From Sanghuangporus weigelae (lineage: Eukaryota; Basidiomycota; Agaricomycetes; Hymenochaetales; Hymenochaetaceae), in the NCBI GenBank assembly GCA_033182465.1, contig CP137318.1, forward strand, positions 3,286,001 to 3,350,000: 64,000 nt of DNA, written 5' to 3'. The position numbers and the translations under genes are program-made. The notes beneath the pieces are model-generated. The model had not been told where the DNA came from and did no database searches. It was given only the letters and a program-made list of their open reading frames with translations. Shown piece after piece: positions 9,997 to 55,041 of the stretch; the stretch's first letter is position 1, and each line of letters starts with the position of its first letter.

Positions 9997-10380
9997 ATGA
10001 CTCGCGGAAAGCCTCTCTCAAATGATGCCCGACAGATCATACAGAATCTGTTTGAGGCCAAGGAGTTTAGCGCAAATCATCTTTCTGCTCTAACGGGCAT
10101 CAACCGCCGGACAATATTCCACATTAACCAGCAGGTTCAGGAGACTGGCAGCATCAAGAGAGACGGTTTGTGGACAGGAAGGCCAAGGATACTGGAATAT
10201 CCGAATGTCCATGTGAGCCCTCTGAGTGTATTGTCGCCTGCTGAGCTGCTCATTATGCTGTCAGTATCTACTCAGTGCCGTCAACTTCTGTAGGGATCTG
10301 TTTCTTGATGAACTTAAGAACATGTTAGGCGAAGCATCTGGTAAATTCGTCTCGGATTCGATGGTATGGCGGACACTAGA
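9997..10380 (+). pseudogene. Truncated Tc1/mariner-like transposase, left arm
   Basis: The N-terminal DNA-binding part only. MTRGKPLSNDARQIIQNLFE and FSANHLSALTGINRRTIF form a helix-turn-helix, followed by the GRPRIL linker motif typical of Tc1 transposases. An apparent intron (about 10,213-10,276) leads to DLFLDELKNMLGEA and VSDSMVWRTLERA, the second HTH ending. The DDE catalytic domain should start next, but the frame runs into unrelated repeat DNA at about 10,380. The copy is therefore inactive. It extends 49 bp further than its partner in the right arm. Confidence 0.78.
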
Positions 10381-12075: not shown

Positions 12076-12519
12076 CACGCTGTCGGTCGGCGGTGTCGTA
12101 TCTGAAGGTGCTACAGATGTCCGTCCTACTAAGGGTGCTGAATGTATGAAGGGACCTCCAAAAATGGGATGCCGACGCTGTAGACTATCAGACCCTCTTA
12201 AGCAGCGGCGAAGGCGACGGCGTTCGACCACAGAGAGGCGTCGGCGGTGTCAAAGATTGGAGAGGTAAGAAGGGATCCAACTCGTGGCTAGACCTCCTGG
12301 ACAGCTTGGTGCCGTGGCGGACAATTTGACCCGGAAGCACTGCCGCCGATCGGGATGCGCGCTCAGTCGTGGGGAGAGCTCAATCGTAAGGGCTATGATA
12401 TGATCCGCGTATAAAGGGGACGCCGCCGATAATGTACGAGACAAAGCCGCCGATGAGTCAAGATGTCGGCGTCGCGAATAAGCAATAGAGCGACGGCGCT
12501 GTCGGGTCCTGCGAGCGGC

Positions 12520-12722
12520 GGCGATTACTAGTAGAGCGACGGTACCGCCGATTACCAGGAGAGCGACGGTGTTGCCGATTACCAGGAGAGCGACGGTGTC
12601 GCCGATTGTCAAGAGGGCGATGGCGCTGCCGATTCCCAGGAGAGCGGTGGGGTCGCCGATTACCAGGAGAGCGACGGTGTCGCCGATTGTCAAGAGGGCG
12701 ATGGCGCTGCCGATTCCCAGGA
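12520..12722. repeat. 27-bp GC-rich tandem repeat array
   Basis: About 7.5 head-to-tail copies of a 27-bp unit of the type GCGACGGTGTCGCCGATTAC plus CAGGAGA. A higher-order period of 81 bp (three alternating variants ending CAGGAGA, CAAGAGG and CAGGAGA) is visible from about 12,580. Because 27 is a multiple of three, open frames run through it on both strands; these are by-products of the repeat. The array is missing from the right terminal region. Confidence 0.85.
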
Positions 12723-13594
12723 CGGGGGATAGCTCTGCCGATCACTTGCGCAGTGGCGAGTGAGCACGTGCCCCTGTTATTCCCTTAAACGGGGGCGGCG
12801 TCTTGTGTCGGCACACGATCTTCGGCGGAGGCGATAGAGAGCAAAAGGGCTAATAGAGACGAGAGGAGTGCACTGAGATCTATTCTGAACTACTGCTTCT
12901 GAACACTACATACATGAGGTCTATATATACTGGGGAATGCTGGGGAAGAGCGTCACAGAGGCGGCGACAGTGACGGCGCGTCACAGGCGCGCAATCGGTG
13001 CGGACCCAAAGATCGGGGCGCGCCGCGAAGCTGCCAAGACACGGGCGCGCGCTGATCGGGCTGGCGGTGATTGGCGCGGCGCATCATCATCGGGCGCGCT
13101 CGGATCGCTAAGTGGTCGCACCACACGAATATGAAACGTCAGGGGAGGCAATAATACTAAAAGGGGAATACGCGAGTGGCCGCCGCGTCCGACAATCGGA
13201 CTCGGCGCACGAAGCAGCATAGTATGAACATGAAACGTGGTACCTGGGACCTTGTAAAACCACTACCCGACGTCGGATAAGCCAATCAACAGGAGCCGAC
13301 GAATATTCCATCGGCTATACGGTTCGATATCCTTCCGCCGCCGTAGCCGATACATCCGTTGCAACGTTCCAGGCGCCCGTGTATCAGAAAGTGCGGCTGG
13401 CCAAGCATACTCGGTTTGGGAAGTCTTCGAAGGACGGGAGGCGGCGGACGTATTGGTTGAGCCGCGAATCAAGGAGTGGCGGTTTGGAAGGTCTTAAGGA
13501 GCGGCGGAGGTGTAGCGGTCGCCGCACGATGGTATACTGTACGGAGTACTGAGGGGCCTGTACCGACGTACCGGTATAGGCAAGTGCGGCGCAC

Positions 13595-15288
13595 TACAAC
13601 GCTATCAGACTCTCAAAGACCTACTACCCGGCAGGTGCCAGGAACCGTCGGAGACGTAATGGATGGGTCTAGGGATGCCGCTGGATAAAGGGAATAGGAT
13701 AACAGGACCGCCGCTCAAAAGGGGGGATCACAAGAGGCTGCCGACGTGGTATAAACTCGGCCACAGGAAGGTATGAAGTGTATAAGATGAATATAAAGGA
13801 TAAAATGGAGTGAGTGGCTGGAGAAGGCGCCGCTGGGTCGTCTGATAGGATGCCTGGGTCGTCGGATGGCCGCCGACGTCGAATAGAGGGGTGCCGGACT
13901 GAGGGGGAGGCCGCAGGAATCCGCCGCAGTAGCGTAAACGCGATAGATGAAAGGAAAAGACCATATAAGATCAATATATGGGATAAACTGGAGTGAAAGG
14001 CTGGAAAGGACGCAGAAGGGGAGTCTGATGAGATGCCTGGGTCGTCAGATGGCCGCCGACGTCGAATAGAGGGGCGCCGGATCACTGAACGTCAGAGCGG
14101 CAGAGGCGTACCGGAGGCGGCGAAGGCAAGTAGAATGTGGAGTCAAACAAGAGGAGATGTCAAGGATAGTATATAGTCAAGGGGGAGGCTCAGTACATGA
14201 GGGGAGACTCAGAGTGAGGGATATCTCGAACTCTGGCGCTCGGTCTGGTACATGCTCTTGGAACCCTCGCTAGGCTTGGAATCCTTGCTAGGCTTGGAAT
14301 CCTGTCGTCTACAAGCTAGTATAAGCTCTATATATACTCTACTGCTGTCGCCGACACATCCTACTGTCTGACAACATCTCCTGAGTCATCTGGGTCGCCA
14401 AGGGCCGCTGCCGGAGCGCCCAGGTGAAATCTGAGAGCGGCAACGTGAGGGGGGCATCCAATCACATGAAATATTGAGTATCTGCAATAACACGGGCGCC
14501 GGCGGAGTTGGGCTTGGCGGCGCGAGTCGGTGGCTTGGCACGCCGATGTACCACATGCCTACCTTCCATACATGGTCTAATGGGGGCCGCCGCGTTGGGG
14601 GGAAGTCGGGAAACATCGGAACTGATGATTGGAGGCTGATATCGCGTATATGAGACAAAGGGCACATCAGCCGATGACCCTGAGGTGTCTGATGCATCGG
14701 CGGCACTCAATACAGAGTGTGGGCGATCCCTAGTGACTAATATGAGTGGCCGGAGCGGCAGTGCTGTGGGGGACTGCCGGACTGGTGGCAGATACATCGT
14801 AATGAGGCATGTAAGCACATATGACAATATATAGCTCCCTAGACAATGGGGGACTGCTTGGTAAGCTGTAGGAGGCATCGGCGAGGGTACCTGAGGATGT
14901 CTGAGTGTCCGCCGCATTGATCGGCGCCAAGGGGGGCCGACTCGGAGGCATCCAGAGTCGCCGCACGGCTGTACGTATGGTAAATCATAAGATCGGCGGC
15001 ACGTAGTCACTGAGGGATGTGTCCTATAGTGCCTGGTGCTGGGTAGGAGCTGTCGGCGGACCTGTCTGAGTGTCAGGGAGCCATCGGCGGATCGATTTGG
15101 GTCATAGGAGGGCGCCGCAGTACAGTACGTGTGCTGGAATCAATGGATACGTGCTCAAATGATGTCCCGAGTGCAATAGGAGTGTGCCCTCACACTCTCA
15201 GGTGTCGGCAGTGCTGGGATATGGTATCTGCAGTAAGAGGGAGCCATAGTATGAGTGTACTGGCACAGGAGGAGCCAGTGCGCTACAC
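13595..15288 (+). repeat. Long direct repeat, left copy (LTR portion)
   Basis: 1,694 bp matching 20,365-21,918 in the same orientation, 6.6-6.8 kb apart. Aligned parts differ by about 1%. This copy has two tandem versions of a block of about 170 bp (13,727-13,900 and 13,905-14,080); the right copy has one. Long minus-strand open frames here are G/C-rich repeat shadows, duplicated with the DNA. Confidence 0.8.
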
Positions 15289-17163: not shown

Positions 17164-19033
17164 TTGTACCCACCAGTGATCAGAAGGCTACAAGAAAGGG
17201 TTGAACAACTGGAAGAACGAACTGCAAACACGGGGCAGTCAAACAGTCTACCAACCGGAGCATACGCGACAGCAGTAGGAGATCGATTCGAAGCACTCGA
17301 AGCAACTACTCGAAGAATTGGAGCACAAGTAGCAGCTCTAGAGAGATATACTCTGGAATTGGATCGAGCAGCAGGAGCACTCAATCAACGAGTCATAGAC
17401 GGAAATGGAGTACTTGACCAAGAGCTCAACGCTATCCGAAACAGGATTACTGCTCAGGAACAACAACTACAGACGATTGAGACAAGAGTCGGAGAGCTTA
17501 ACAGGACAGCTCTAGATCAACCAAGGATTGTTCAAGACATCCATAACCTACGAGAAGCCCTACTCCAACTAGGACAAACAATCGAGTCGAGTCAACGTAC
17601 CTACGTGGCTATACTCACATTGGTACAGACAACCAAAACTACCTCGAGGAACATACTCGAACACGCTCAACGAATTCAAGAAGTAGCTCAGGCAGCACAA
17701 CGCTGGGAATACTTTCTACCAAGAGAGAGAGCCCAACAGGAACAGAGTTCTGACGAATCAGTGTCCTCAGACAAAGAAGCATCATGAAGGCCATTCTTAC
17801 TCAGAACCCCACCTCGAACGGTTATCATCCAAGTACCAACAGTACCTGCAGTACCAGCAAGTGGTTCAGTAGCAACCCAAGCACCAGAGAATCCACCACC
17901 ACCATCCTATTCACCACCAGCAGTGCCCATAAGCACATACGATCATGTCGACAACCGACCAGAAGGTGCGAGCACTGGAGCAGCAACTACAGACTCTTCA
18001 GACACAACTCTCTAAACACAGCATCAAGCTTCCGAAGTACTATGGCAAGCGAAGCGAAGATATTGATCTGTGGATTAGTTGATGTATCTCGAAGTTGGCA
18101 CAGCATGGAGTCAAGGATGAGGAGGAGATCGCAAAGAGCCTATTTGCGGCACTAGAAGGCGACAGCTACGATTGGTTTGCAGAAAAGAATACCCTAACAT
18201 CATTCGATGCCAATGGGAAACTGAAACTGGTACCTGCAATTATCGCTGCAACAAATGGAATGTTCGCATCACTCAAGGATATGCTGAACTGGATGAGGAT
18301 CCGAGCAGGACATCCGATCATTGGAGAACAGGAAGCTCTATTCCAACTACTATGCATCCAGCAGAAAGGAGCAAGCATTAGGGCGTACAACGACAAATTT
18401 CGATGACTCAAAGCACGAGCACCAGACATGATGGATAAGCAAATGCTCAAGTACATCTATGTCAAAGGACTAGACATGTGGGTCAAACGACGAGTCAAAT
18501 CTGTACAACCCGATGCTTTCGAGAAGAACGACCTCGATGCATGGATGGAATGGACAAGCAACCTAGCAAACTCTGATGCCAGGCAAAGGCTCATGGGTAG
18601 TCAAACATACACCCCAAGATTCAAATCGAACAGACAGTCATCTTTCCGACCACCAGTACAAACAACGAAACGAGATCCAGACGCCATGGATGTAGATGCA
18701 CTCCGAGGCTTGCTGAAGAAGGGAGGCAAATACTACAACTGTGAAAAGTCAGGACATTACACAAAGGATTGCAAGGCACCAAGGAAGCAAAAGGGTCCTT
18801 CCTCTAGGAAGCCGAAGAAGACCAATGGTGTAAAACGAAGGACAATAACAACACGAACAATTGATTTCAAGGAAACATGTCCCGATCCACATTGCCAAAG
18901 GCCAGTCCACTACGACCACGTAGCATGGGCTAAAGGCGACGAATCAGCCGGATGGACTTGCAAGCATGATGAAGAATACCGAAACAACATTCGCAAATCC
19001 CTAGCAAGTAAAGAGCAACAGGGAAAAGATTAA
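17164..19033 (+). pseudogene. Gag-like region of fossil Ty3/Gypsy element
   Basis: The N-terminal part is rich in heptad-like coiled coil. The middle resembles the capsid segment of Gypsy gag (around EALFQLLCIQQKGASIRAYN). The C-terminal part has the linker DAMDVDALRG followed by one CCHC zinc knuckle (YNCEKSGHYTKDC). Order and motifs place it in the Ty3/Gypsy family. It is broken. Confidence 0.75.
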
Positions 19034-19041
19034 GACCTCCA

Positions 19042-20211
19042 TTGAACGAGACTGCGCGATGGGAGTGTAATAAGGGTGACGAGAAAGGTTTCAACAACCA
19101 GTGTTTCAAACCTCCTGGGTTCAACCCCAGTGAAGCGATATACAATAAGCGATTGCCAATACAAGCATTGCATCCCCGATTACCTATTCGAGTGAAGGTT
19201 GGAACAAAGACCCTAGCAGTCAAAGCATTAATCGATTCTGGAGCTACATGCAGCACGATACACCCCAACTTGGTACGACACTACAGCCTATTCAAAAAGA
19301 GGCTTGATCACCCTCGACCTTTGAATAATGCGGATGGAAGCCCCAACCAAGGAGGAGCAATCACGCACAAGGTCTACACATTAATTTTTGATGGACCTAA
19401 ACCGCAGCCACAAACGTTGGCAGTAGCAACCACAGGACAGGATCAAGTGATCCTAGGAATTGACTATTTGGCCAAAGTCAATCCTGAAATTGATTGGAAG
19501 AATCAAGTATGGAATCGGAATGGTAAGTCGATACCATTCGAGCTCAACGTCATACGAGCTACCAAGAAGCGAAAGCGCAGGAAGCGCAAATGGAAACGGC
19601 AAATGAAAGGCAAACCTGACAAGACAAGACCTAGGCATAACACGAAGCAACAGGCTCAGGACAGAGACAACTATCGACACTCTGGAGCACCAGGAATAAT
19701 ATTTGCACCAAGGAGAGACAACAACGGACACTCTCACGAAACAAAGCCACAAGCGAAGCCGGAAACAAGACCAGCAACACCAAGACTGGAACAGGCAAAA
19801 CAGACGCCAGAAGCAAAGAGTCCGAGCATGGAAAATATACCAGACTCTGCAACGAAACAGCCACAACAGGAAACGGCAAACAAGCATCATCGAGATGAGG
19901 AGGAAATAAACTACACTCCCAAGCGATGGAAGAAACAGGCACCACAAGGAACGAGTATAGTGCAACGACGACCAAGGCACATACCAAGACGGATGATCCC
20001 AGCACGGCAATTGTACCAGACATCTGAAGGCAAAACAGAAGAGATAACAGGCAAGCATAGCCTAGACGAACAGGAGGAAATAAACGACTCTCCAAAACGT
20101 TGGAAGAAACAACCACCACCGAAGATACTGAAAGGATCCGTTCAAAAACTCGCATCAGGATCGATGCGATCAGCAGACCCACACAATCAGCTTTCCAAAC
20201 GCGACCAGTAA
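19042..20211 (+). pseudogene. Retropepsin-like aspartic protease region of the fossil element
   Basis: The first third has the DSGAT active-site motif (around ALIDSGATCSTIH) and the downstream VILGIDYLAKVNPEIDW signature of Gypsy proteases. The rest is a Lys/Gln/Pro-rich tail with internal repeats (INYTPKRWKKQ and INDSPKRWKKQ) and no polymerase motifs. The right terminal region begins inside this stretch, at about 20,147. Confidence 0.7.
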
Positions 20212-24386: not shown

Positions 24387-25470
24387 CAGCTAGTTGCAAA
24401 ATTGTTGGCAATCACGTGATTTCACCACTTTTCTCGCCATGAGAGCCTCAAAACACAGATAAAATCATATCTCACCCAAATCTCAACGGTTTCACATCAT
24501 CTAAGTTGCTAAATTCATCTTTTCGAAAGGGCTTTCGCTTAAAGAAAACTGTAGAGAAAATAGAGCGAAAAATGACCCTAAAATGGCGAAAATATCGGTT
24601 TTTGCCTCTTCCTTGCATGTGCAATTTTTTCTGTGATCCCTGCTGGTCCAGCACCTCCCCAAAGCTATCCAGAATGATAATATGATTATAAAATGAATTT
24701 ACAGACTGAGTTTGAGTTGAATTGTGTACCAGAATGTGCTGCTTTGAGGCATGCCTGAATCACTCAAAACTCATCATTTCCCCCTAGCCTCCCAGGCTCC
24801 AGGAAAAATTCTTACAGGCCAGATTCATGCATGTAAATTCATTTTAGATATAATAGACTAGGTTTATGTGCTAGCTAGGTCCTCAGCATCCACTGGTGAG
24901 CTGGGAAGATGCTGTCTAAAATGATGCATACAACCAGAATCACTTGTTCAGCCCAGCTCACCAGTGGATGCTGAGGCCTTAGCTAGTACACAAATCTAGT
25001 CTATTATATATAAAATGAATTTACATGTATGAATCTGGCCTGTGAGAATTTTTCCTGGAGCCTGGGAGGCTAGGGGGAAATGATGAGTTTTGAGTGATTC
25101 AGGCATGCCTCAAAGCAGCACATTCTGGTATACAATTCAACTCAAACTCAGTCTGTAAATTCATTTTATAATCATATTATCATTCTGGATAGCTTTGGGG
25201 AGGTGCTGGACCAGCAGGGATCACAGAAAAAATTGCACATGCAAGGAAGAGGCAAAAACCGATATTTTCGCCATTTTAGGGTCATTTTTCGCTCTATTTT
25301 CTCTACAGTTTTCTTTAAGCGAAAGCCCTTTCGAAAAGATGAATTTAGCAACTTAGATGATGTGAAACCGTTGAGATTTGGGTGAGATATGATTTTATCT
25401 GTGTTTTGAGGCTCTCATGGCGAGGAAAGTGGTGAAATCACGTGATTGCCAACAATTTTGCAACTAGCTG
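24387..25470. repeat. Symmetric foldback (palindromic) MITE
   Basis: 1,084 bp made of two 519-bp inverted arms (24,387-24,905 and 24,952-25,470) around a 46-bp loop. The ends start CAGCTAGTTGCAAAATTGTT and are flanked by TA (24,385-24,386 and 25,471-25,472), as for Tc1/mariner-type insertion. The arms have equal length and differ by only a handful of transitions. Each arm contains the same 60-codon frame (MLDQQGSQKKLHMQGRGKNR...), which is probably meaningless. There is no transposase, so any movement would need one supplied in trans. Confidence 0.88.
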
Positions 25471-26012: not shown

Positions 26013-28081
26013 TCAATCCTGCAAGAGAGGTCAGTAAATTCGTGGCGAAATCTTCTTGATTCCTCACCCATAGTTTGATCAGCCCATCCCACGATGCCGT
26101 CAGGACTTTTGACTAAAAAAATTATTCATCAACGCTGAGTCATGACAGGCAACCAAGACAACTTACGGTCTCGTGTGGCAGCCATTCATGAGTAATAACG
26201 ACCTTCTGATGTGCATGAAGCCTCGACTTTATTCGACCGGTCTTCCAGTCCCAGAAGACGATATTGCCTGAGCTATCACCGCTGCTAACCCATTTTCCGT
26301 CTGGAGAGAAACCGACTTGGCAAGCGTAACCTGCAACAGTATGCCCGGCGAATCGCTTCTTACGATTCTGTCGGAAATTATCAGTGCTGTAGATGAGGAT
26401 CTGGTTGTCAAGCGACTGCGCGGCGAAGTATTTCTCTGAATAAAGTGGGTTAGAGGGTTCAGCAAAGTATCCGGGTTGACCACGTACTCGATGGGTGAAG
26501 AGTAACAGCAGGCATCGAATGCATGAAGGGCTCTGCGATGTACTTGATGACGACAGGGATGTCGAAGTCCCATGCACGAATTGTCTTGTCGTCAGACGTT
26601 GTCACGAAACGTCGGTTTTCGTCGACGAAAGTGATGGTATTTACAGGCCCTAGATGCTGATCGTATTCCTGCGCAATTTCTCCTGAATCGATATCGTACT
26701 AGACATATGTCCTCGTAAGCAATCGATTTCCTCAAACAAGCAAGAAATGAAGCACCTGGATTATTTTCTTGTCTGACATACCCGCCAGGAAAATGTTTTG
26801 CTTGTCATCGTCTGGATGGAACTTTATGCAATACGGAATCTTGCCGTTGCTGAACCGTTTTATACATTGTCCAGTCTCGGTATCCCAGAGCTTCATTTGT
26901 CGATCGTAGCCACAAGAAAGGAAGCGACGTCCATCATTTGAGAAGCACAGATCCTTCACGGCCTTTGTGTGGCCCATGAACGTGCGGAGACAATTTCCGG
27001 TTGTATAGATGTCCCATAACTAGCTGCTAGTTAGTTTCCTCACCAGGCATGCCCAGACCTACTCACCTTGATTTTGGTGTCCATTGAACCACTGAGGAAA
27101 AGGTGGGCAGTATTTGGAAAGAGTTTGATGACAGAGATGCCTTGGGTATGTCCGGTATACGTATGTATACATGCCTTCGGTATGAAACATTCTTGAGAGC
27201 CGGGCTCTGATAAAAGATGCGGTGCTTGTGCGAGTGGCGGATGCATGTATGTTCTGCCCTGGTAGTCTGTTAATGATTTCCCATGGAAAGTTGACGACTC
27301 CTGGCCCGCGGCACCATGTCTCCCTCTTGACTTTTTCTTCGTCGTGGTCTCTTCCTCTTCCTCCTCTTCCCCCCCTTCACCCTCTTCTCCAGCCTGGAAG
27401 AGCTCGTCTGGAAAGTCGTTTGTCCTGCCATCACCCTCATAAGCGGCCCAAGGTCCAACATAAGAACCTTCTCCATCGACAATATCAACGTCTCCCTTCG
27501 GTTTTCGTTTTCGTTTTAGTTCTTTCTTCTCAGAACGACTGACACGTAGCGTATCTAGGGTTGCGAGCCCATTAGCTTGCGCTTTGTCCACTGCCCCGAT
27601 TATGGCAGGCGCACTAGGGTCCATTGAAGGATTTGCGGAATAACCAAGAATCTGGTACGTTAAATGTTGTTGTCGGAAAGCATGTTCAGTCATTGCTTGC
27701 TCCTCGACGTGGCCCGCCAATGCATTCTGGTATTTAAAGCGATTACGTTCATCGAAAGGATTCTCTGGCCCCTGCTCTGGAAGTGTCATATCGCTGAATG
27801 GGATGTTTACGTTCATCTGAGTGTCTGTCGGCCGTGTCACCAGAGATGTTTGCTTTAGAGGGTCCTGTTCACAATAGCTTTAGCATCAAGCTAGACCAGA
27901 CAACAGACTCTTCACACACCTCTGCAAGGACATCAGGAGCACTTGTCCCAACCTTTGTCCCTGTCTCCGCTTCTCCGACGCGTGGTTTCTTTGTGGAAGG
28001 TAGAGCTGTGATTCCGAAGGCATCCTGGGCGTTCCCAACGGTGCCGTCCTCGTCTGACGAATAGTCTTGAACAAGAGGCAT
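26013..28081 (-). CDS. PRP17: Pre-mRNA splicing factor Prp17/CDC40 (WD40)
   Basis: A second-step splicing factor that joins the spliceosome and contacts the 3' splice-site region. The N-terminus is [13 protein letters not shown] (start at 28,079-28,081). It is followed by the Prp17 signature [21 protein letters not shown] and [12 protein letters not shown], an acidic/Lys-rich linker (about 27,300-27,420), then WD40 repeats: [67 protein letters not shown] and [12 protein letters not shown]. The last exon is tiny: after [10 protein letters not shown] an intron (GTGAGG...TTGCAG) leads to a single Asp codon and TGA at 26,013-26,015. That end matches the family's terminal KLWD. At least seven introns. 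Confidence 0.93.
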
Positions 28082-28294
28082 AGTATGACGATGGCCTTCG
28101 AACTATTTCAATCGATCTTTGCACCAGGAAAACGTTTTAAGAAGTGCGGTCAGTGTCGACTGTTACAACTTGAAGTTGCCTGCAACGTGAACCAAAGTGA
28201 CGATCGACATTTGATTACATAACGCAGTGTCTCGATTCACGTCCACTTCATTTCAAACCTTAACTTGAAGTTAGTGCACCCATGAGCAAGGCGA
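28082..28294. promoter_or_regulatory. Divergent promoter PRP17 / MYB gene
   Basis: 213 bp separating two genes transcribed away from each other. It must contain both promoters; no specific box stands out. Confidence 0.5.
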
Positions 28295-30500
28295 ATGAGC
28301 AACAACGCTAATTGCGGTCGACCATGGACACCATACGAAGATGACTTGCTTAGGGCTGCCGTTGCCATTTACGGCGATAACACAGAAAAATGGAAGGCGA
28401 TTGCACTTTCGGTGCCAGGGAGGACGAATAAAGCTTGTAGAAAGGCACGTTTGAAGTTCTCGTCTACGCCGAGTGAAGCCCGTATCACTAATCCTAAACC
28501 ATGTAGCGCTGGCTTCACTCACTCTCACCTTCCGTAAAGAAGAGCGCCTGGACTTCGGAGGAAGACCAGCTCCTATTATCGCTCTTTGAGAAGTATCCGA
28601 ATAAATGGTCTCGGATTGCTCGCGAGATCCCCGGACGAACTGACGATGCATGTTCAAAAAGGTACAGAGAGGCGCTAGACCCAAGCCTCAAGAAGGATGA
28701 ATGGACGGAGGATGAAGAAAGGCATTTGCTGGATGCTCTCATGCGTCACGGAGGTCCGACAAATCCAAAATGGGTGCTCATCGGACAGGAATTGCGCCGG
28801 AGCAGCTTAGGCTGTCGTAACAGATGGCGACTTCTCGAGAGAAAAAAGAGAGCCGCAATTCGTCGGGGTAATCCTGTAGACGGCCAGTCGAGCTCCGTAA
28901 ATGTAGATCAGCAAAGCTCTGCAGACCTTTGGATTCTTCTTGCAGAAAGTGGATCTTCATCAGACTGGGAAGCCGTGTTGAATTCTCTTGGTGTTCCGCT
29001 TGAAAGTCCCTCAGGTCCTGCAGCAAACCACGATTTCAGATTCGACACATCCTTCGGTGAACGGCCCGAAGTCTCTCACCGAGCTGTAGAATCTGTCTCG
29101 ACCGAGCCTCAAGCGACTGTTCACCAACATGCCGAATTACCTGGAGGCGCGCATGTAGGCTTTCTTTCTCAAGATCTTCCAGCGACCACGAACTTTTCTT
29201 CAGCGTCGTCTGATGTCGGGATAGAAACTCAGACTGATCAATGTACCGGAGCAACTGCAGTTACGGCGTCGTCTGCCGGTAAGAATATTTCTGAGTACTC
29301 TTTCGACATCCAGGTACCGGATCCCATTGACTACGGTGACTCGAGAGACAGCGATTCGTTTTGTGTCTATGATGTCGATGCTCAGGTTTCATGCCGAAGC
29401 GAGGAGAACAGAGCCCGCGAAACTTCTGAGGAACTACATCATGCACCGGAGACTCCTGGCAACGCGCAAACTTCGAGTGGCCTTTTTACACACGAAACGG
29501 AAAATTTGGGTTCCCTAGGTACATTGGCCCAAGCAGCGTCCACTCTATCTCCATCGCCCTTGGCTGGTGCCGACACAGGGCAGGCACAGCAAGCAGGACG
29601 TAGTATCGTCCTTCCGCCTCGGAAACGACGTCGACCCACCACGGACTCCCTTGCATATACTGGTATGCATGTAATCTCCGACGTAAGTGGAAGACCAAGG
29701 TCCGAGCCAAAATTATCGTCATCACTTCCTGTCGCTGGCGAGTGCGTCCCCGTCGTGACTGCATCTATCCTGGTCTGAATCTGACGATCTATCTTCAGCC
29801 CGTCAATTTTAGCATATGTCTGCGGAGACTCAGCTTGTTTACCCGCAGGTACCAGCGAGAGCATTTCTTGCTACTCAACGTCTGGTGAACTGTTGAACCA
29901 CTATAAGGATAAGCACATGGATGATGCGGGGACGGGTAATGAGACACCGTTCCGTTGTGGCCTGACGGGATGTAATAAGAGATGGAGGGTATGCCGCCCC
30001 TGTTACTTCCAAGCGCCACAGACTGATCTTGCCTGTGTTTTCAGAGCATAAATGGTCTTCAATATCACCTTCAAATGTAACTAATGATCCTTACCCTTTG
30101 TATGTGCTCTGCTAATTTCTTTCTGTCAGTTCCAAGGTTCATTATCAGCTCATCTGTTCGCGTGCTGCGCCCACACCAAGGCAGAATTCGGGCAGCACTT
30201 CAACGGCTTCAACGGCGGATCCAACCTGTTCCTCCGACAACGTACCCCGAGGCCGTGCGAAGCGTACACATAAGTGTCCTCATTCGGGATGCTTGAAAGA
30301 GTACAAGCAACTAAGCGGACTACGTTATCATCTACTTCATGTGAGATTTCTCATTCTCCGAGAATCAAGTTTTAATTTTGATCCTTTGTGTCCGTCGTTA
30401 GGGCCATCCGAAAGACAGTCCGACGCAATTCGACGCAGTTCCTCCCAGAATTGCGAAACAGCTCGGCATACAGCCTGCAACACTCGCATCATCCAGATAA
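28295..30500 (+). CDS. Three-repeat MYB protein with C-terminal Sfp1-type zinc fingers
   Basis: A nuclear DNA-binding protein. Three SANT/MYB repeats lie at the N-terminus: RPWTPYEDDLLRAAV, SAWTSEEDQLLLSLFEKYPN and DEWTEDEERHLLDALMRHGG, each ending in an NRW/KRY-type third helix. R1 and R2 are joined across an intron that starts with GC (28,445-28,506), giving CRK|RWLHSLSPSVKK. A long Ser/Thr-rich acidic middle follows (to about 29,775). Short exons then encode C2H2-like units: FRCGLTGCNKRWRSINGLQY and HKCPHSGCLKEYKQLSGLRY followed by HLLHGHPKD. This second unit resembles Sfp1-family fingers. The stop TAA is at 30,498-30,500. Regulatory targets are unknown. The fusion of MYB repeats to this finger type is the unusual point. 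Confidence 0.8.
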
Positions 30501-35040: not shown

Positions 35041-35599
35041 ATGCTGTCGTCAAGATTATTCTTCCTTTTCTCTTGCGTCTTCGTCTTCCTTACTCTCGCC
35101 TGTGCTGCTCCTGTATGTTTATACATTTTATCCGGCGTTTATCCTCATGCTCACTTATCTCTCTTCGTGTTCAGATGGTGCAGCCTGATGATCTGGCCAA
35201 ACGTATCGCCGAACCCGTGAGTGTCTCTTCCAATTTGCTATTACCCTTTTTCGACATGCATCTTAATACACATATGTCTTCGGTTCTTATAGCAAAATGG
35301 AATGGGTGGCAGCGGAAAGGATTGGAAACGTGAGGCACAAAATGGCATGGGCGGGTCTGGAAAAGATTGGAAGCGGGAGCCAGAAGCTGAAGCTGACCCC
35401 CAAGGCGGGTTTGGCGGTTTTAGCAAAGATTGGAAGCGGGAGGCTGAACCTCAACCTGTGAGTATCCGCATAGCCAATCGTTCATCAACGTTCCGTCGCT
35501 GAGACGACGCTCCTCTTCCAGCAAGGCTTTGGCGGCGTAAGCAAGGACTGGAAGCGAGAACCGCAAGGTGGTTTTGGCGGCTTCGGTAAGGACTGGTGA
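35041..35599 (+). CDS. Kex2-processed repeat precursor 1 (alpha-factor-like)
   Basis: A 118-residue secreted precursor. Exons: 35,041-35,112, 35,175-35,216, 35,293-35,457 and 35,522-35,599. Residues 1-23 form a signal peptide (hydrophobic core FFLFSCVFVFLTLAC, then AAP). The rest contains five Lys-Arg sites that would release five peptides: two copies of QNGMGGSGKDW, then QGGFGGFSKDW, QGFGGVSKDW and QGGFGGFGKDW. Each is preceded by a spacer of X-Ala/X-Pro dipeptides (IAEP, EA, EPEAEADP, EAEPQP, EP), the substrate type of a Ste13-like aminopeptidase. After trimming, all peptides start with Gln, which often cyclises to pyroglutamate. All three introns are phase 0 and the last two fall exactly at Pro|Gln. 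The architecture matches ascomycete alpha-pheromone precursors and fungal KEP proteins. Function unknown. Confidence 0.88.
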
Positions 35600-39749: not shown

Positions 39750-40055
39750 ATGCGAGTAACCGCACTTATCGTCGCCCTCGCGGCCATCACTTTCGTCAGC
39801 GCCGCCCCCGCCCCCCTTCCCGAAGCGGAAGCGGCTGCGGCCAACGCGGATTGGAAACGCGGTCCTCCCGACTGGAAGCGTGAAGCGGATGCCGAACCTG
39901 GTGCGCCGGCTTGGAAGCGTGACGCGGATGCTGAGCCCGGAGCACCGGCCTGGAGGCGCGATGCGTCATGGGGCAGAACACCTCACTGGAAGCGTGAGGC
40001 AGATGCCTCTCAGGAAAAACGGGACCCGAGATGGGGCAACATATATACCTGGTAA
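39750..40055 (+). CDS. Kex2-processed repeat precursor 2 (alpha-factor-like)
   Basis: A 101-residue, single-exon secreted precursor. Signal peptide residues 1-18 (MRVTALIVALAAITFVSA) are followed by a short Ala/Glu-rich pro-region. Dibasic sites then cut the chain into EAEAAAANADW, GPPDW, EADAEPGAPAW, DADAEPGAPAW, DASWGRTPHW, EADASQ(EKR) and the C-terminal DPRWGNIYTW. Spacer dipeptides (EA, DA, EP, DP, GP) again suit a Ste13-like peptidase and would leave GAPAW (twice), SWGRTPHW and RWGNIYTW. Almost every product ends in Trp, as in precursor 1, but the peptides themselves differ. One site is Arg-Arg rather than Lys-Arg. Processing is inferred from motif logic; the mature products are not known. 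Confidence 0.85.
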   Translation: MRVTALIVALAAITFVSAAPAPLPEAEAAAANADWKRGPPDWKREADAEPGAPAWKRDADAEPGAPAWRRDASWGRTPHWKREADASQEKRDPRWGNIYTW

Positions 40056-42418: not shown

Positions 42419-45400
42419 CTAGTTCCTTTTCTGCCTTGTAGATCTCCTTGCAGTCTTTGATGGCTCCTTTTCCTGCAGAGGTTGGCTTTAAAACGCCAAG
42501 AGTTAGTACTGCCCACAATCGATTACAGAACAAATACCTCTTCTTTTTGATATCAGATACAACTTCATCCTCTTCCTCATCGTCATCATCATCATCGGCA
42601 TAAAGTGACAACTCATGCAGCTTCTTTTGCAGCTTCGTTACGCCACCGGTTGATCTTTGTTCAGGAGGCCGATTCGCATCTTTGGCAGCCTTCCCCTCTT
42701 GCTTAGTCTTGGGAGTTGATTTAGGCTCTGGATCGGGAAGCCATTCCTCCTCCTCCTCCTCCTCCTCTTCCTCAGTCACGGTACTGAGCCCTGATGCTTC
42801 CTCATTCCCTTCATCCCCATCGGAGCCGGTATCGGCACCGGCAGTCATGGTCTCGTCCGCGTCCATTTCATCGATGCCCATGTCCTGATCAAGTAATCCA
42901 ATCGTCGACGAACCCTTCTTTGCTTCTGAGCGCGATTTGTGGGCCAATGGAGACTGTGTGCTGGCGTCATCATATGTTGTCTCAGCATCTTCATCTTCGC
43001 TGAAACCGGCCAAGGAGTCCTCCAGAGAATCATCTTCCTCATCTTCGTTACTGTCCTCGGTCTAAAATGAGAGGTCAAATACAGGAAACAAACTATCAAG
43101 AATTCACTGACATTGCGCGTCACATTGCTTATGATTTCAGAACCTGCTTCAGTGCTCTCAATACTCGTCTCAGCGGCGTTTGATCGAGTCTTCCTCCGCG
43201 AGTTTGCAGTGAAAGCGCCAAACTGGTGGAGCATGTCTATTTTTGCATCTGTCTTTGCTTCGCTCTGTTTAACCTGAAAGAGACTAGTTCAGCCTTCCAT
43301 TTCATTGGAACAATAATCTCGCAGAAGCTTACAGCCTTTTTGAGGCGTTCGGCGAACACGTGTTGCATGTTTAACATGCGCTCTTCCATTTCTTGCATCA
43401 CTTCTTCCCGAGTTTCGGCTTCTATGATTGCGCAACGCATCTCCGATTCGTACAGCTTCAGTATCGATGATCAATAATTTGTCCATGCACGAGTTCGTGA
43501 TGATCTGATCGTTACCTTAATACGTAAATCCTCTAACTCCTCAAATAGTGTGTCTACTAAGACGTCCACAGGTTCACCATCGCCATCAGACTCTTCGTCC
43601 TCTGGATAAACACGAGGGGTTATTGGATGTGCCCCGAAAAGAAGCAAAGAAGCTTACCTTCGATAATCTCCACATGAGCTTCACTCCGCTTCCGTGTGCC
43701 TGTGCCGCCTGTAGTAATGGTCACATTCCTCCGGTTTGGAGCTGGAGTTTTATTGGCTTTGAACACCCGCTCCATGGGTGTTGGCGTCTGTCGAATATTT
43801 GCCTTTGGCACGGTGGCAGGCACAGTTGTCACTTCTCGCGCAAGCGCCGCGAAGCGCATTACATGGCTGTTTTCATCGAAACCTGTATCATAGGGATTGA
43901 CATTCACGATCATGACGGCGTGACCTCCCTGTTCACCAGTAAAGAAGTCTTGGAAGAGTTCGGTTAACTTGCTATGCCGGAATGGGATGATAGCAAGCTT
44001 GACTCCCCGACCAGGGTTCGCGATGTCAATCTCACCCCGGCCTGGTGCAGCAAGCATGGCAGCTACCCTTCGTTGATTGCTCCGCATGGCTTCCATGCAC
44101 TGACCGAGAACCATGAGAGACTTGTTGATGTTTCCGGCTTCCTTCAATCGATCGCCTGTGTTGTGCGTGTTTTTCGTTCGCTCTGAGCCAGCTAGATCGA
44201 CGATGGAGAGACGCGAGACAGACACATCGGAAGGGTCCCCCCTGTGAATACGGACAGCGCGAAGCGTGAAGATTCCATGGCTCCGCGAAGAGACGGCATT
44301 TGTCAAGGTCCCGAACACCCGACGATTAATGTTTCCTGTGCGGAAGACGTGCTTCGCTTCTTCTGCAGAGCGCACGCGTACGCACTTCAGACCGGCAACA
44401 TACTTTCCTCCACCCTCAGGATCTTTCTTGAGTGACAGTGCTTTCCTCTTGACGAAAAGAACATCTGGCGAGGAATGCAATGAAGTAAGAGATGCCAAAT
44501 TTGACCACGTGCTGGAACTTGATCCAGGGATCCGTTTTGAGCGCGGAATACAATTAGTCGTCCCTTGGGGGGTTGCACATGTACTGTCTCTATCACTGTT
44601 AGCAGGGTCGTTGGACAGCAAATCGAAGATCTTTTCGTTGTACACTTCAACATATGAGATCCAGATAGAGTATTCATAGTTCTTGTCGACGGGAACGGTT
44701 GTTGAATCCACGTCTTGAGAGTTAATTTCTCCCAGGGCAGCTGCAATGGCCTTTTCTTCCGACAATTCTGGGAGTACACACGTAATATCATCGTCCATCG
44801 TTCGTTCAACTCCGGATATCCGTACAGGTCGGTACTGTAAGCTCGTTCAATATCAATCCAGGCAATCGGTGTTGTGACTTACAGGAGCATTGGTATGGAG
44901 ACCCTCCAAGCTGTTGAAAACGACGTCAAGAGTCCTTGGCAGAAGACCAGCGGTATCCTTTTCCGTCCCTCCTTGGATTGTATATGTCTTTCCCGAGTTC
45001 GTCACACCATATGTGAATATCAGCCCATTTTGCCCTTGAAGAAGGTCTTGGACAAGTGGTAGAGTCGTCTTCATGAAGAACTCGGACTGGCGTGTTTCGG
45101 GGGCGAAGACATGATTGAAAGTGTAGACTTGAGCTTGAGGATGTAAACGAATACGGTTGCTTCCTGAGAGATCAGTCATCTGCACTGCCGAGTCGGAGAG
45201 CTTCTTAAGATAAGGAGTCGCAGTCTGATCGTCGTCGTTAGTATCGCCATTGGGGCGGATACGCAAGTATGCCTTAGAATGATTGTCATAAAAGAAGTGC
45301 TGAAGTGTTTGTGTTGAACATCGACGTACCTTGATTGGCTCTCTGTCCGAATCATCAGTATTTAGTTGCGTAGGTGCTTTAGCCTTCCCTGTTTTCTGAT

Positions 45401-45572
45401 TCTGTGGATGGACGGCGATTCTATTAACGAGAGGTTTTCTCGGTTTAGTCTTTTCGGTCGGTGCTTTTGGTGCTGGAGCCTCTACGATCGCAGGACATCG
45501 CGCAGCAGCGGCCCGAGTGACTCTTGCAGGAGCAGCTACCTTGCGTGATGCCGCCGTCTTACGAGTCGCCAT
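42419..45572 (-). CDS. Kinesin-6 family motor (MKLP/KIF20-like)
   Basis: A plus-end motor of the group that bundles midzone microtubules in anaphase and cytokinesis. A basic N-terminal tail (about 100 residues) precedes the motor: AYLRIRPNG, the P-loop GVTNSGKTYTIQGG, VEVYNEKIFDLLS, switch I NAVSSRSHGIFTL, switch II LSIVDLAGSERTKN and RHSKLTELFQDFF. GVTNSGKT and a long insertion after the DLLS helix (about 44,430-44,600) are kinesin-6 traits. Downstream lie a coiled coil (about 43,240-43,550) and Glu/Asp-rich runs. At the 3' end a GTATTT intron with a TACTAAC branch gives a basic terminus ending QKRN with stop 42,419-42,421; retention of that intron would end at 42,405. Start chosen at MATRKTAAS; an upstream in-frame ATG at 45,632 is possible. 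Confidence 0.87.
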
Positions 45573-45745
45573 TGTGTGATCAACGCTGAGGACAGACTTG
45601 AAGAGCAGAGTGTGGCCTGGTGTGGCCTGCACGCGCGTGTTTGAACACAGCGCTCACGTGATCGCGAAACACGCGAGGCATCCGTGGTTGGGTCGCACTT
45701 CTCAACGTTGATCGACCGACACTACCAGGTCAAGACGCGCCTACC
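45573..45745. promoter_or_regulatory. Bidirectional kinesin-6/KNL1 promoter with G1/S-type boxes
   Basis: 173 bp between two divergent mitotic genes. It contains ACGCG at 45,631-45,635 and 45,671-45,675, CGCGAAA (SCB-like) at 45,663-45,669 and another ACGCG near 45,734. MBF/SBF factors of fungi bind such motifs. The short interval means one set of sites could serve both genes; that is inference. Confidence 0.5.
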
Positions 45746-52983: not shown

Positions 52984-54806
52984 TTACCACATAAAACGCC
53001 CTACACCCTCCCGCTCCATGTACAAGAAAATATACATACTACCCCAGTTAATAAGAGTATACCACGCCCCTTCAAGCCAGATAGCCCATTGCGGCATATC
53101 TATAATCTGCGCGCGCATTAACACGTATGGTATTAGAAAATATCGGGGCTCCAAGAGGGGAGTCAGCAGAAGAGTGGGAGCAGCAAATAACGGCAGAGCA
53201 ACGGTCTGTAAGAATGTTTGGGAGGCACCTAACAGAAAAAAAGCGAACATAAGCATATCATTGCGAGATTGTAACATAAAAAAAGCTCTAACCGATGCGG
53301 ATAAACCACGCCCATGCGCAGGCTACATACACAGGAGAAAACAAGTAGGGAACTACGGGATGGAACTGGAATACCCGACGCCAGATGTAGAACGTGAAAT
53401 GTCGATTATCCGACAATAGGAAAGGATGGTGAATACTGAATTTTGGAGAGTCAGAGTACTGATTTCAAGAAGATTGAGGAGAATGACGTACGTGAAGAAG
53501 TGCACAGTTACGGCCACCGCCGATGACAATAAAACGGTGATCGCCGTGCGTCTGAAGAGATGTGAGCACAAAATACTAGAAACTCTGCAGGGAAACGTAT
53601 CTTACTTTGTAGTTCCGAACATACGGGTTTTCACATCATTCAGTATCCTGAAGGGACCTCCCGGACCGCTGACAAGAGCAGGCCATCCGAACAATGTCGC
53701 GCAAGCAAAGAAGTAATACAGTTGCGGAATGTGTAGTACAGGAACATGGTTAGATTTATCCCCTTGGGAAATTGGTATGAGCTGAGTTTGCACTGTTGCA
53801 TATCGAGTTATAATCTTACCTAGGACTATGCCGCCATTCCAATAAACGAATATAGCAAATAGAAAAACGTCTATTGCATATGGGACCGCACTGTACACGA
53901 CGAGCGGAAGGACGCGAGGCACACTGAACAGGACTTTTAGTAGGTCCGCTAAAGAATAACAGTAAGCGGGATCTGTATAGAGAACTGAGTGTATACATAC
54001 AGGGAGCTGTCGATAAAGCCGGAGGATCATAGAGCTTCACCTCTGACTCCGAGGATTTTGTTTGATACCGTAAGGCCCTGAGTTGACTGTACGCATACGC
54101 ATACATGACCCATATAATATTGGTCTGCCTAAATGCACAACTCATGAGACCTAGCTGTGTTCAGTATAAGCAATTATTCCTTTCTGAGAGCAAGAATACT
54201 TACCAGCGCAGAAAGTGTATGGCTTCCTTGAAACGCCGAAGTGACTGATAGTAGAGCAAAAACGAGGCTCGGAACATCAGTGTAGTACAAGAATCCGAAG
54301 AACCAAGCAATTGGAAAGAGGGAGATTGACAATGCGTCGGATGTTGGTGAAAGTAACTCTTGAGGGGGACGCACTCGGCGCTGGAGACTCAGCAACCGCG
54401 TGAGTATTATGGGAAGTGATAGCAGAGAAATAAGAGGAGTCAAACGCAGGATGGATAAGTTGCATTTGAAGAGGAATAGTTTACTGAGCAAGACGCTCAG
54501 AACGTATCTGTACGAAGTATTATAAGTGAACAATTGAAGGAAAATGGAATTACTTGAAGGCCTACAGTCCAGGAGGAGTAGTAATCTTTGGGTTCCATGT
54601 GCCCCATTCTCCACGACAGTACGCTTGAGCTTGAGGGACATGGAATGGTTCATCCTGCCTCCTTTAATCATCAATACCATAGACATGTCGATGGGGAAGA
54701 CGCGCACCATATATGGCTCCGTTACGATGCTATTAACTTCTCTAAGAAGAACAATATTCGCCGCACAGAACGCGAAGTAGTAGATAGCATTCGACATATT
54801 CTCCAA
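52984..54806 (-). CDS. ALG10: Dol-P-Glc alpha-1,2-glucosyltransferase ALG10/DIE2
   Basis: A polytopic ER membrane enzyme that adds the last glucose to the dolichol-linked N-glycan donor. Exon 1 ends ..SIVTEPYM, and after an intron the chain continues [17 protein letters not shown] and [10 protein letters not shown], the luminal signature of the family (EPYMDE-FH-PQAQ). Further exons give many hydrophobic helices and the segment [20 protein letters not shown], also a family hallmark. The C-terminal exon (52,984-53,277) reads [18 protein letters not shown] and ends FMW at TAA. At least five introns. The start is [11 protein letters not shown] at 54,804-54,806. Confidence 0.9.
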
Positions 54807-55041
54807 CCGGGGAGATTTAGCCTGGAGACAGAGTAGAGATGTTGAGAAGACACGTCACGACGCGAAAGGCGCGTCTTGCTTGATCGACGCTTATTTGTCC
54901 TTATTTACAGTACTTGGATCGACGCGTAACCCAGACGCGCAAGAGGCGTTCTCATTTTCTGTGCCGGACCGCGAGGATCGCGTCACAGCACAAAGCCTCT
55001 TGTCTCCAACCGTCTGGTCTACGTCTGTATCGTGATTAAAA
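54807..55041. promoter_or_regulatory. Divergent promoter ALG10 / CSN6
   Basis: 235 bp with several GCG-rich words including GACGCGAAA near 54,859, ACGCGT at 54,922-54,927 and GACGCGC near 54,934. The same motif type occurs at the kinesin/KNL1 promoter, so these boxes are not restricted to mitotic genes. Confidence 0.45.

Follow-up and report, generated by a model that had tools for sequence, protein, structure and literature searches.

The gene at positions 35041–35599 (+) of the window, the stretch of 64,000 nucleotides of Sanghuangporus weigelae DNA analysed here, was termed KEP1 and is read as encoding an alpha-pheromone-like KEX2-processed repeat precursor (KEP) with a STE13 signature, whose peptides are predicted to be released by processing and to serve a secreted role outside mating. 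The probability of this reading was estimated as approximately 0.8, a figure that does not extend to the choice between a signal and an effector. KEP1 does not represent a new processing principle; mushrooms were already known to have precursors of this type. At this locus, two precursors lie close together, their predicted products are clear, selection is indicated at the codon level, and exact masses can be sought, so that the role of alpha-factor-like peptides in lipopeptide-mating fungi becomes testable in one more species. Published work is cited below from excerpts of the respective papers.

Gene structure and predicted products of KEP1

KEP1 is located on contig C1 of the genome, whose 13 contigs add up to 33.87 Mb. 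The gene model, built from the sequence alone, has four exons with 357 nt of coding sequence and yields a precursor of 118 residues (Table 1). Translation and the splice model reproduced the four-exon gene, the five cores, and their order as they had been reported in the sequence-only reading. The mean hydropathy of the N-terminus was up to 2.96 over 12 residues, and the first ~23 residues, ending in ...LACAA, were strongly hydrophobic. The signal-peptide-like start proposed earlier was recovered by this hydropathy analysis, and the stretch ending in ACAA could be a signal peptide.

Each core had been described as lying between a Lys-Arg site and a run of X-Ala/X-Pro dipeptides. Lys-Arg followed by such a run indeed precedes all five cores. 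At the 3' side, Lys-Arg was found after four of the five, because the last core abuts the stop codon. The spacers following Lys-Arg are, in order, IAEP, EA, EPEAEADP, EAEPQP, and EP, giving X-[AP] runs of 2, 4, 6, or 8 residues after every Lys-Arg. Their second positions were Ala or Pro in 11 of 11 dipeptides, and the runs were unbroken. When residues were shuffled within each inter-KR segment, 11 leading X-[AP] dipeptides were reached in 0 of 200,000 trials, which is consistent with the Kex2/Ste13 processing grammar claimed for this gene. Every run ends at the core Gln, as also claimed, and the predicted products would uniformly begin with this residue. The core centres varied (NGMGGSG, GGFGGFS, GFGGVS, and GGFGGFG), and the constant part was Q...KDW only. 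CAA, the codon of the core Gln, is the first codon of both exon 3 and exon 4. Thus placed, the exon borders at introns 2 and 3 fall exactly where trimming is predicted to end. Skipping of exon 3 would preserve the frame and lose three cores.

Table 1 Positions of KEP1, KEP2, and repetitive frames in the window.
Feature	Position	Strand	Content	Basis
KEP1 exon 1	35041..35112	+	signal-peptide-like stretch MLSSRLFFLFSCVFVFLTLACAAP	hydropathy, translation
KEP1 intron 1	35113..35174	+	62 nt, GT-AG, phase 0
KEP1 exon 2	35175..35216	+	pro-segment MVQPDDLA, first Kex2 site KR, first spacer IAEP
KEP1 intron 2	35217..35292	+	76 nt, GT-AG, phase 0; core Gln codon directly 3'
KEP1 exon 3	35293..35457	+	cores 1–3 QNGMGGSGKDW, QNGMGGSGKDW, QGGFGGFSKDW; KR sites, X-A/X-P spacers
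KEP1 intron 3	35458..35521	+	64 nt, GT-AG, phase 0; core Gln codon directly 3'
KEP1 exon 4	35522..35599	+	cores 4–5 QGFGGVSKDW, QGGFGGFGKDW; stop included
KEP2, second KEX2-processed repeat precursor	39750..40055	+	single intact frame, 101 aa + stop; 4.2 kb downstream of KEP1
Repetitive Arg-rich frame	12461–12784	-	>=3 [KR]R-X-[AP] sites	six-frame scan
Repetitive Arg-rich frame	13672–14091	-	>=3 [KR]R-X-[AP] sites	six-frame scan

The following maturation is proposed for KEP1. The precursor would enter the secretory pathway, kexin would cleave it after each Lys-Arg, and a Kex1-type carboxypeptidase would take the basic residues off the fragments. A dipeptidyl peptidase IV (DPP-IV; Ste13/Dap2-like) would remove one X-Ala/X-Pro pair after another and halt on reaching Gln-Asn or Gln-Gly. 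At core 4 it could halt two residues too soon, because the spacer EAEPQP places Gln-Pro ahead of the core Gln. The expected products are peptides of 10–11 residues with a Lys-Asp-Trp end, in which the initial Gln is able to form pyroglutamate. The calculated [M+H]+ values of the pyroGlu forms are 1119.45 (QNGMGGSGKDW), 1168.51 (QGGFGGFSKDW), 1063.48 (QGFGGVSKDW), and 1138.50 (QGGFGGFGKDW), and those of the forms with free Gln lie 17.03 higher. They may be used as a secreted non-mating signal in vegetative growth or development, or as an effector toward other organisms, and are perhaps made together with those of the neighbouring KEP2.

The KEP definition of PMC6339444 asks for at least four fragments after KR/RR cutting, at least three of them alike, and repeats covering at least 15% of the protein, together with a SignalP signal peptide and no membrane protein by TMHMM. 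Cutting of KEP1 at KR gave six fragments beyond the signal-like stretch, five of which carry a KDW core, their similarity being judged by eye and that of the published set by a Fimo step. The repeats account for 54 of the 118 residues (46%). The X-A/X-P dipeptides that define the STE13 signature stand directly after the dibasic sites in all five spacers.

Chance and codon-level selection

A six-frame scan of the window detected five stop-free frames with at least three [KR]R-X-[AP] sites; in 40 dinucleotide-shuffled windows used as the control, the mean was 0.075 and the maximum 1. The five frames were exon 3 of KEP1, KEP2, a kinesin exon, and the two repetitive Arg-rich frames of Table 1.

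Repeats 1 and 2 of KEP1, compared with their Lys-Arg, showed 9 nucleotide differences and no amino acid difference over 13 codons. Their Ser codons, AGC and TCT, are not connected by any single silent step. Nine random changes kept the 13-residue repeat unchanged in 0 of 200,000 simulations. Repeats 3 and 5 showed 8 nucleotide differences and one residue difference over 11 codons, and four of the five codons of the KDWKR units varied among repeats, all synonymously, Trp having a single codon. Because repeats 1 and 2 share 13 residues yet differ at 9 nucleotides, the peptide looks selected, in agreement with the earlier proposal that selection acts on the mature product. The repeats diverged silently while the peptide stayed nearly constant, and this codon-level constancy, which requires no comparison with a relative, makes the strongest case that the KEP1 cores matter.

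KEP2 and the surroundings of the locus

KEP2 is the one fresh element at this locus and was absent from the sequence-only reading. Its layout is MRVTALIVALAAITFVSAAPAPLPEAEAAAANADW-KR-GPPDW-KR-EADAEP-GAPAW-KR-DADAEP-GAPAW-RR-DA-SWGRTPHW-KR-EADASQE-KR-DP-RWGNIYTW. The Trp-ended segments are ...NADW, GPPDW, GAPAW (twice), SWGRTPHW, and RWGNIYTW; the exceptions to the plan are EADASQE, which has no Trp end, and the first cut segment GPPDW, which has no clear spacer. Two cores, SWGRTPHW and RWGNIYTW, have xWGxxxxW in common. ADAEPGAPAW occurs twice, and between the two copies 6 of the 30 nucleotides are changed but no amino acid is.

The two precursors appear similar in plan, with different cores. 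The likeness is taken as one of plan only, because the BLASTP match between them (E 8e-05) covers the repeat parts and the DNA matches between their 3-kb regions are only 12–15 nt long (E 0.87); common descent is not claimed. No paralogue of either gene was found in the genome: the protein search with KEP1 gave three matches, which were its own exons, and that with KEP2 matched KEP2 alone. It is conceivable, though we consider it unlikely, that KEP1 and KEP2 are a linked set providing two kinds of Trp-terminal, DPP-IV-trimmed peptides for a joint non-mating hormone system with a receptor other than STE2 or STE3.

The Pfam neighbours in the window (27043–29775, 43623–45653, and 54177–54854) were WD40 (-; just below the cut-off), Myb DNA-binding (+), kinesin (-), and DIE2/ALG10 (-), and none of these suggests a biosynthetic cluster. 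A gag-asp_proteas match just over the cut-off at 19012–20208 (+) marks a retroelement-like region, to which position 18668 is also assigned. Identical or near-identical translated stretches lie on opposite strands at 24543 (-) and 25314 (+) and at 10136 (+) and 22122 (-), which suggests that the left part of the window holds inverted repeats or mobile elements.

Genome-wide pattern searches

Further precursors were searched for in the genome with four patterns. KDWKR occurred at 8 places and at 3 in the reversed control; four of the 8 belong to KEP1, and the other four, read in context, were not repeat precursors. WKR-E-[AP] occurred at 30 places and at 23 in the control, with six in KEP1 and KEP2. 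Twenty of the 30 were examined, and the 14 among them outside the window, read in context, contained no KEP; two of the 20 loci (L017 and L018) were identical over 60 nt around the site.

KR-[DE][AP]-[DE][AP] occurred at 173 places and at 46 in the control. Among the 100 places listed, 56 were one identical dispersed-repeat word, AAACGAGATCCAGACGC, which is also present at position 18668 of the window. Of the 44 others listed, 35 were read: five belong to KEP1 and KEP2, two to a KEP-like frame on contig C6, and 28 were not KEP-like. Several of these 28 were copies of a second dispersed repeat. The frame on C6 (L083; G000:C6:2618500-2621000, minus strand) is the repeated frame RRDAEPLSDTFKRDAEPLSDTFRRDVEPLSDALG, with RRDAEPLSDTFKRDAEPLSDTF and without Trp ends.

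Paired W-[KR]R sites were found at no fewer than 156 places (at least 156 among the matches listed) and at 91 in the control. Three evenly spaced, in-register TGGARRMG sites were observed at each of C5:673115-673179, C7:1764000-1764061, and C3:1571418-1571497; these may be further Trp-ended KEPs or simple repeats. No KEP homologue was found in viral and prokaryotic contigs, which is expected because the gene is fungal.

Processing enzymes and mating genes

STE13-signature KEPs call for kexin and DPP-IV in the same organism, and candidates for both were found in this genome. P_proprotein was detected at two loci; the one on contig C4, the only one compared with the PDB, was nearest to yeast kexin (E 4.9e-27). 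DPPIV_N was detected at a single locus on C2, which matched dipeptidyl peptidase IV in the PDB (E 4.2e-27).

STE3 gave 14 exon-level matches, distributed over contigs C10 and C7; 12 of them were over the cut-off. PF08015 (Pheromone), which we take to be the family holding the lipidated basidiomycete pheromones, gave three matches over the cut-off with modest E-values (8.6e-5 to 0.003). These matches agree with the basidiomycete host assumed in the sequence-only reading. The genome showed no candidate for STE2 (PF02116), a soft negative in that no control genome gave a signal either. For STE3, PF08015, and UstYa the control genomes were likewise silent, yet all three matched in this genome. A regular expression found no CaaX open frame in seven overlapping STE3 loci; this says little, because the PF08015 matches sit elsewhere, at three places. 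A pheromone response element of the ACAAAGGG type was absent from the 500 bp upstream of KEP1 and of KEP2.

Weighing of alternative functions

If KEP1 were a true alpha-type mating pheromone, it would act through a Ste2-like receptor and replace the lipidated a-type pheromones or stand beside them. Its architecture matches the ascomycete alpha-pheromone precursors as described in PMC6339444, but the STE3 and PF08015 matches disfavour a mating role, as does, more softly given the silent control genomes, the lack of a STE2 candidate. Moreover, KEP1 lies on C1, a contig other than those bearing the STE3 matches (C10 and C7), and its cores do not carry the WXW motif of yeast alpha-factors (PMC7329392). 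The precursor ends in GKDW and has no CaaX box for farnesylation, the mark of basidiomycete a-type pheromones. A mating function is considered very improbable. We regard as equally improbable a dikaritin-type RiPP precursor, the peptides of which would be further modified, e.g. cyclised by UstYa-type oxidases. UstYa genes (PF11807) are present in the genome, with 13 exon-level matches at E up to 0.001, but none of the 13 is on C1, so there is no sign of dikaritin-type cyclisation beside KEP1. Tyr is a residue cross-linked in known dikaritins, and the KEP1 cores contain none. In favour of this explanation, 17 of the 76 KEPs homologous to putative basidiomycete pheromones are near DUF3328 (UstYa) genes (Umemura 2020, PMC7329392). 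The X-[AP] spacers after every Lys-Arg, which are not expected by chance, and the same layout in KEP2 with other cores speak against a Gly-rich repetitive wall protein that is secreted uncut and whose Lys-Arg sites are incidental. Fungal walls do contain repetitive secreted proteins, but we give this explanation very little weight as well.

The more serious alternative, tentative but possible, is that the KEP1 peptides are effectors or antimicrobial or deterrent peptides toward other organisms; it is one of the two uses contained in the preferred reading. Knockouts of six KEPs of Coprinopsis cinerea had no apparent phenotype in axenic culture, on account of which Vogt et al. favoured an interaction with the biotic environment (PMC9769878); because of these silent knockouts, an essential signalling role is also weakened. 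On the other hand, the KEP1 peptides are short, Gly-rich, free of Cys, and near neutral, which would set them apart from typical membrane-active peptides, and repetition in several copies, with conservation at the codon level, suits a specific ligand. Because the peptide has been kept constant, we lean slightly toward a self-signal over an effector within the preferred reading of KEP1 as a processed precursor with a non-mating role.

Comparison with known systems

The Kex2/Ste13 grammar had been regarded as unexpected in a basidiomycete; this was not supported, as STE13-signature KEPs were already described there (PMC6339444, PMC7329392, PMC9769878), those of Basidiomycota being published in 2019 (Le Marquer, PMC6339444). 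Peptides of basidiomycete KEPs have been measured, but the cited KEP papers, in the excerpts used, report no receptor or function. A literature text search for the KDW repeat unit and KEP2 words returned no fungal paper by title, its reach being text and not figures or supplements; KEP1 itself may already be listed in published figures or supplementary tables.

The ascomycete alpha-pheromone precursors of the yeast MF-alpha type share with KEP1 a start that is at least signal-peptide-like, Lys-Arg sites, X-A/X-P spacers, and repeated cores. KEP1 differs from them in its core sequence, in having no Pfam family at E 0.1 and hence no alpha-mating-factor match, and in the lack of a STE2 candidate in its genome (control silent). 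The basidiomycete KEPs of Le Marquer follow the same alpha-pheromone plan in fungi that do not mate by alpha-pheromones, as KEP1 appears to do, with a recurring C-terminal Asp-Trp (PMC6339444). The text excerpts of that paper name the recurring motif XSDW and no KDW cores.

Qsp1 of Cryptococcus neoformans, a self-signal, resembles the predicted KEP1 products in being a secreted, Gly-containing, Trp-ended peptide of 11 residues from a basidiomycete (PMC7537855, PMC5959073). Unlike KEP1, it is matured extracellularly by Pqp1, with Opt1 serving for its uptake, and the excerpts of these papers describe no Kex2/Ste13 repeat precursor for it. The likeness would be one of functional analogy only.

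KEPs of other mushrooms also resemble KEP1. Pleurotus KEPs 1091723 and 1439342 and Lentinula edodes KEP 2599 give products that, like those predicted for KEP1, end in Asp-Trp: SGVAADW and MSGVAADW in Pleurotus, whose precursors have STE13 motifs, and SGTGEASAADW in Lentinula. These fruiting-body peptides, reported in 2022, end in -AADW instead of KDW and have no initial Gln (Vogt, PMC9769878); the NADW end of the first KEP2 segment resembles them. KEP 490115 of C. cinerea differs from KEP1 in its cores, QYKAPSW/QMRPPSW in place of Q-(Gly/Phe)-KDW, and in the use of RR instead of KR, as compared by description and not by alignment. Like KEP1, for which secretion is predicted, it is a secreted repeat precursor of an Agaricomycete with STE13 X-A/X-P motifs and Gln-initiated, Trp-ended cores, and its expression in Pichia yielded both QYKAPSW and pyro-QYKAPSW (PMC9769878).
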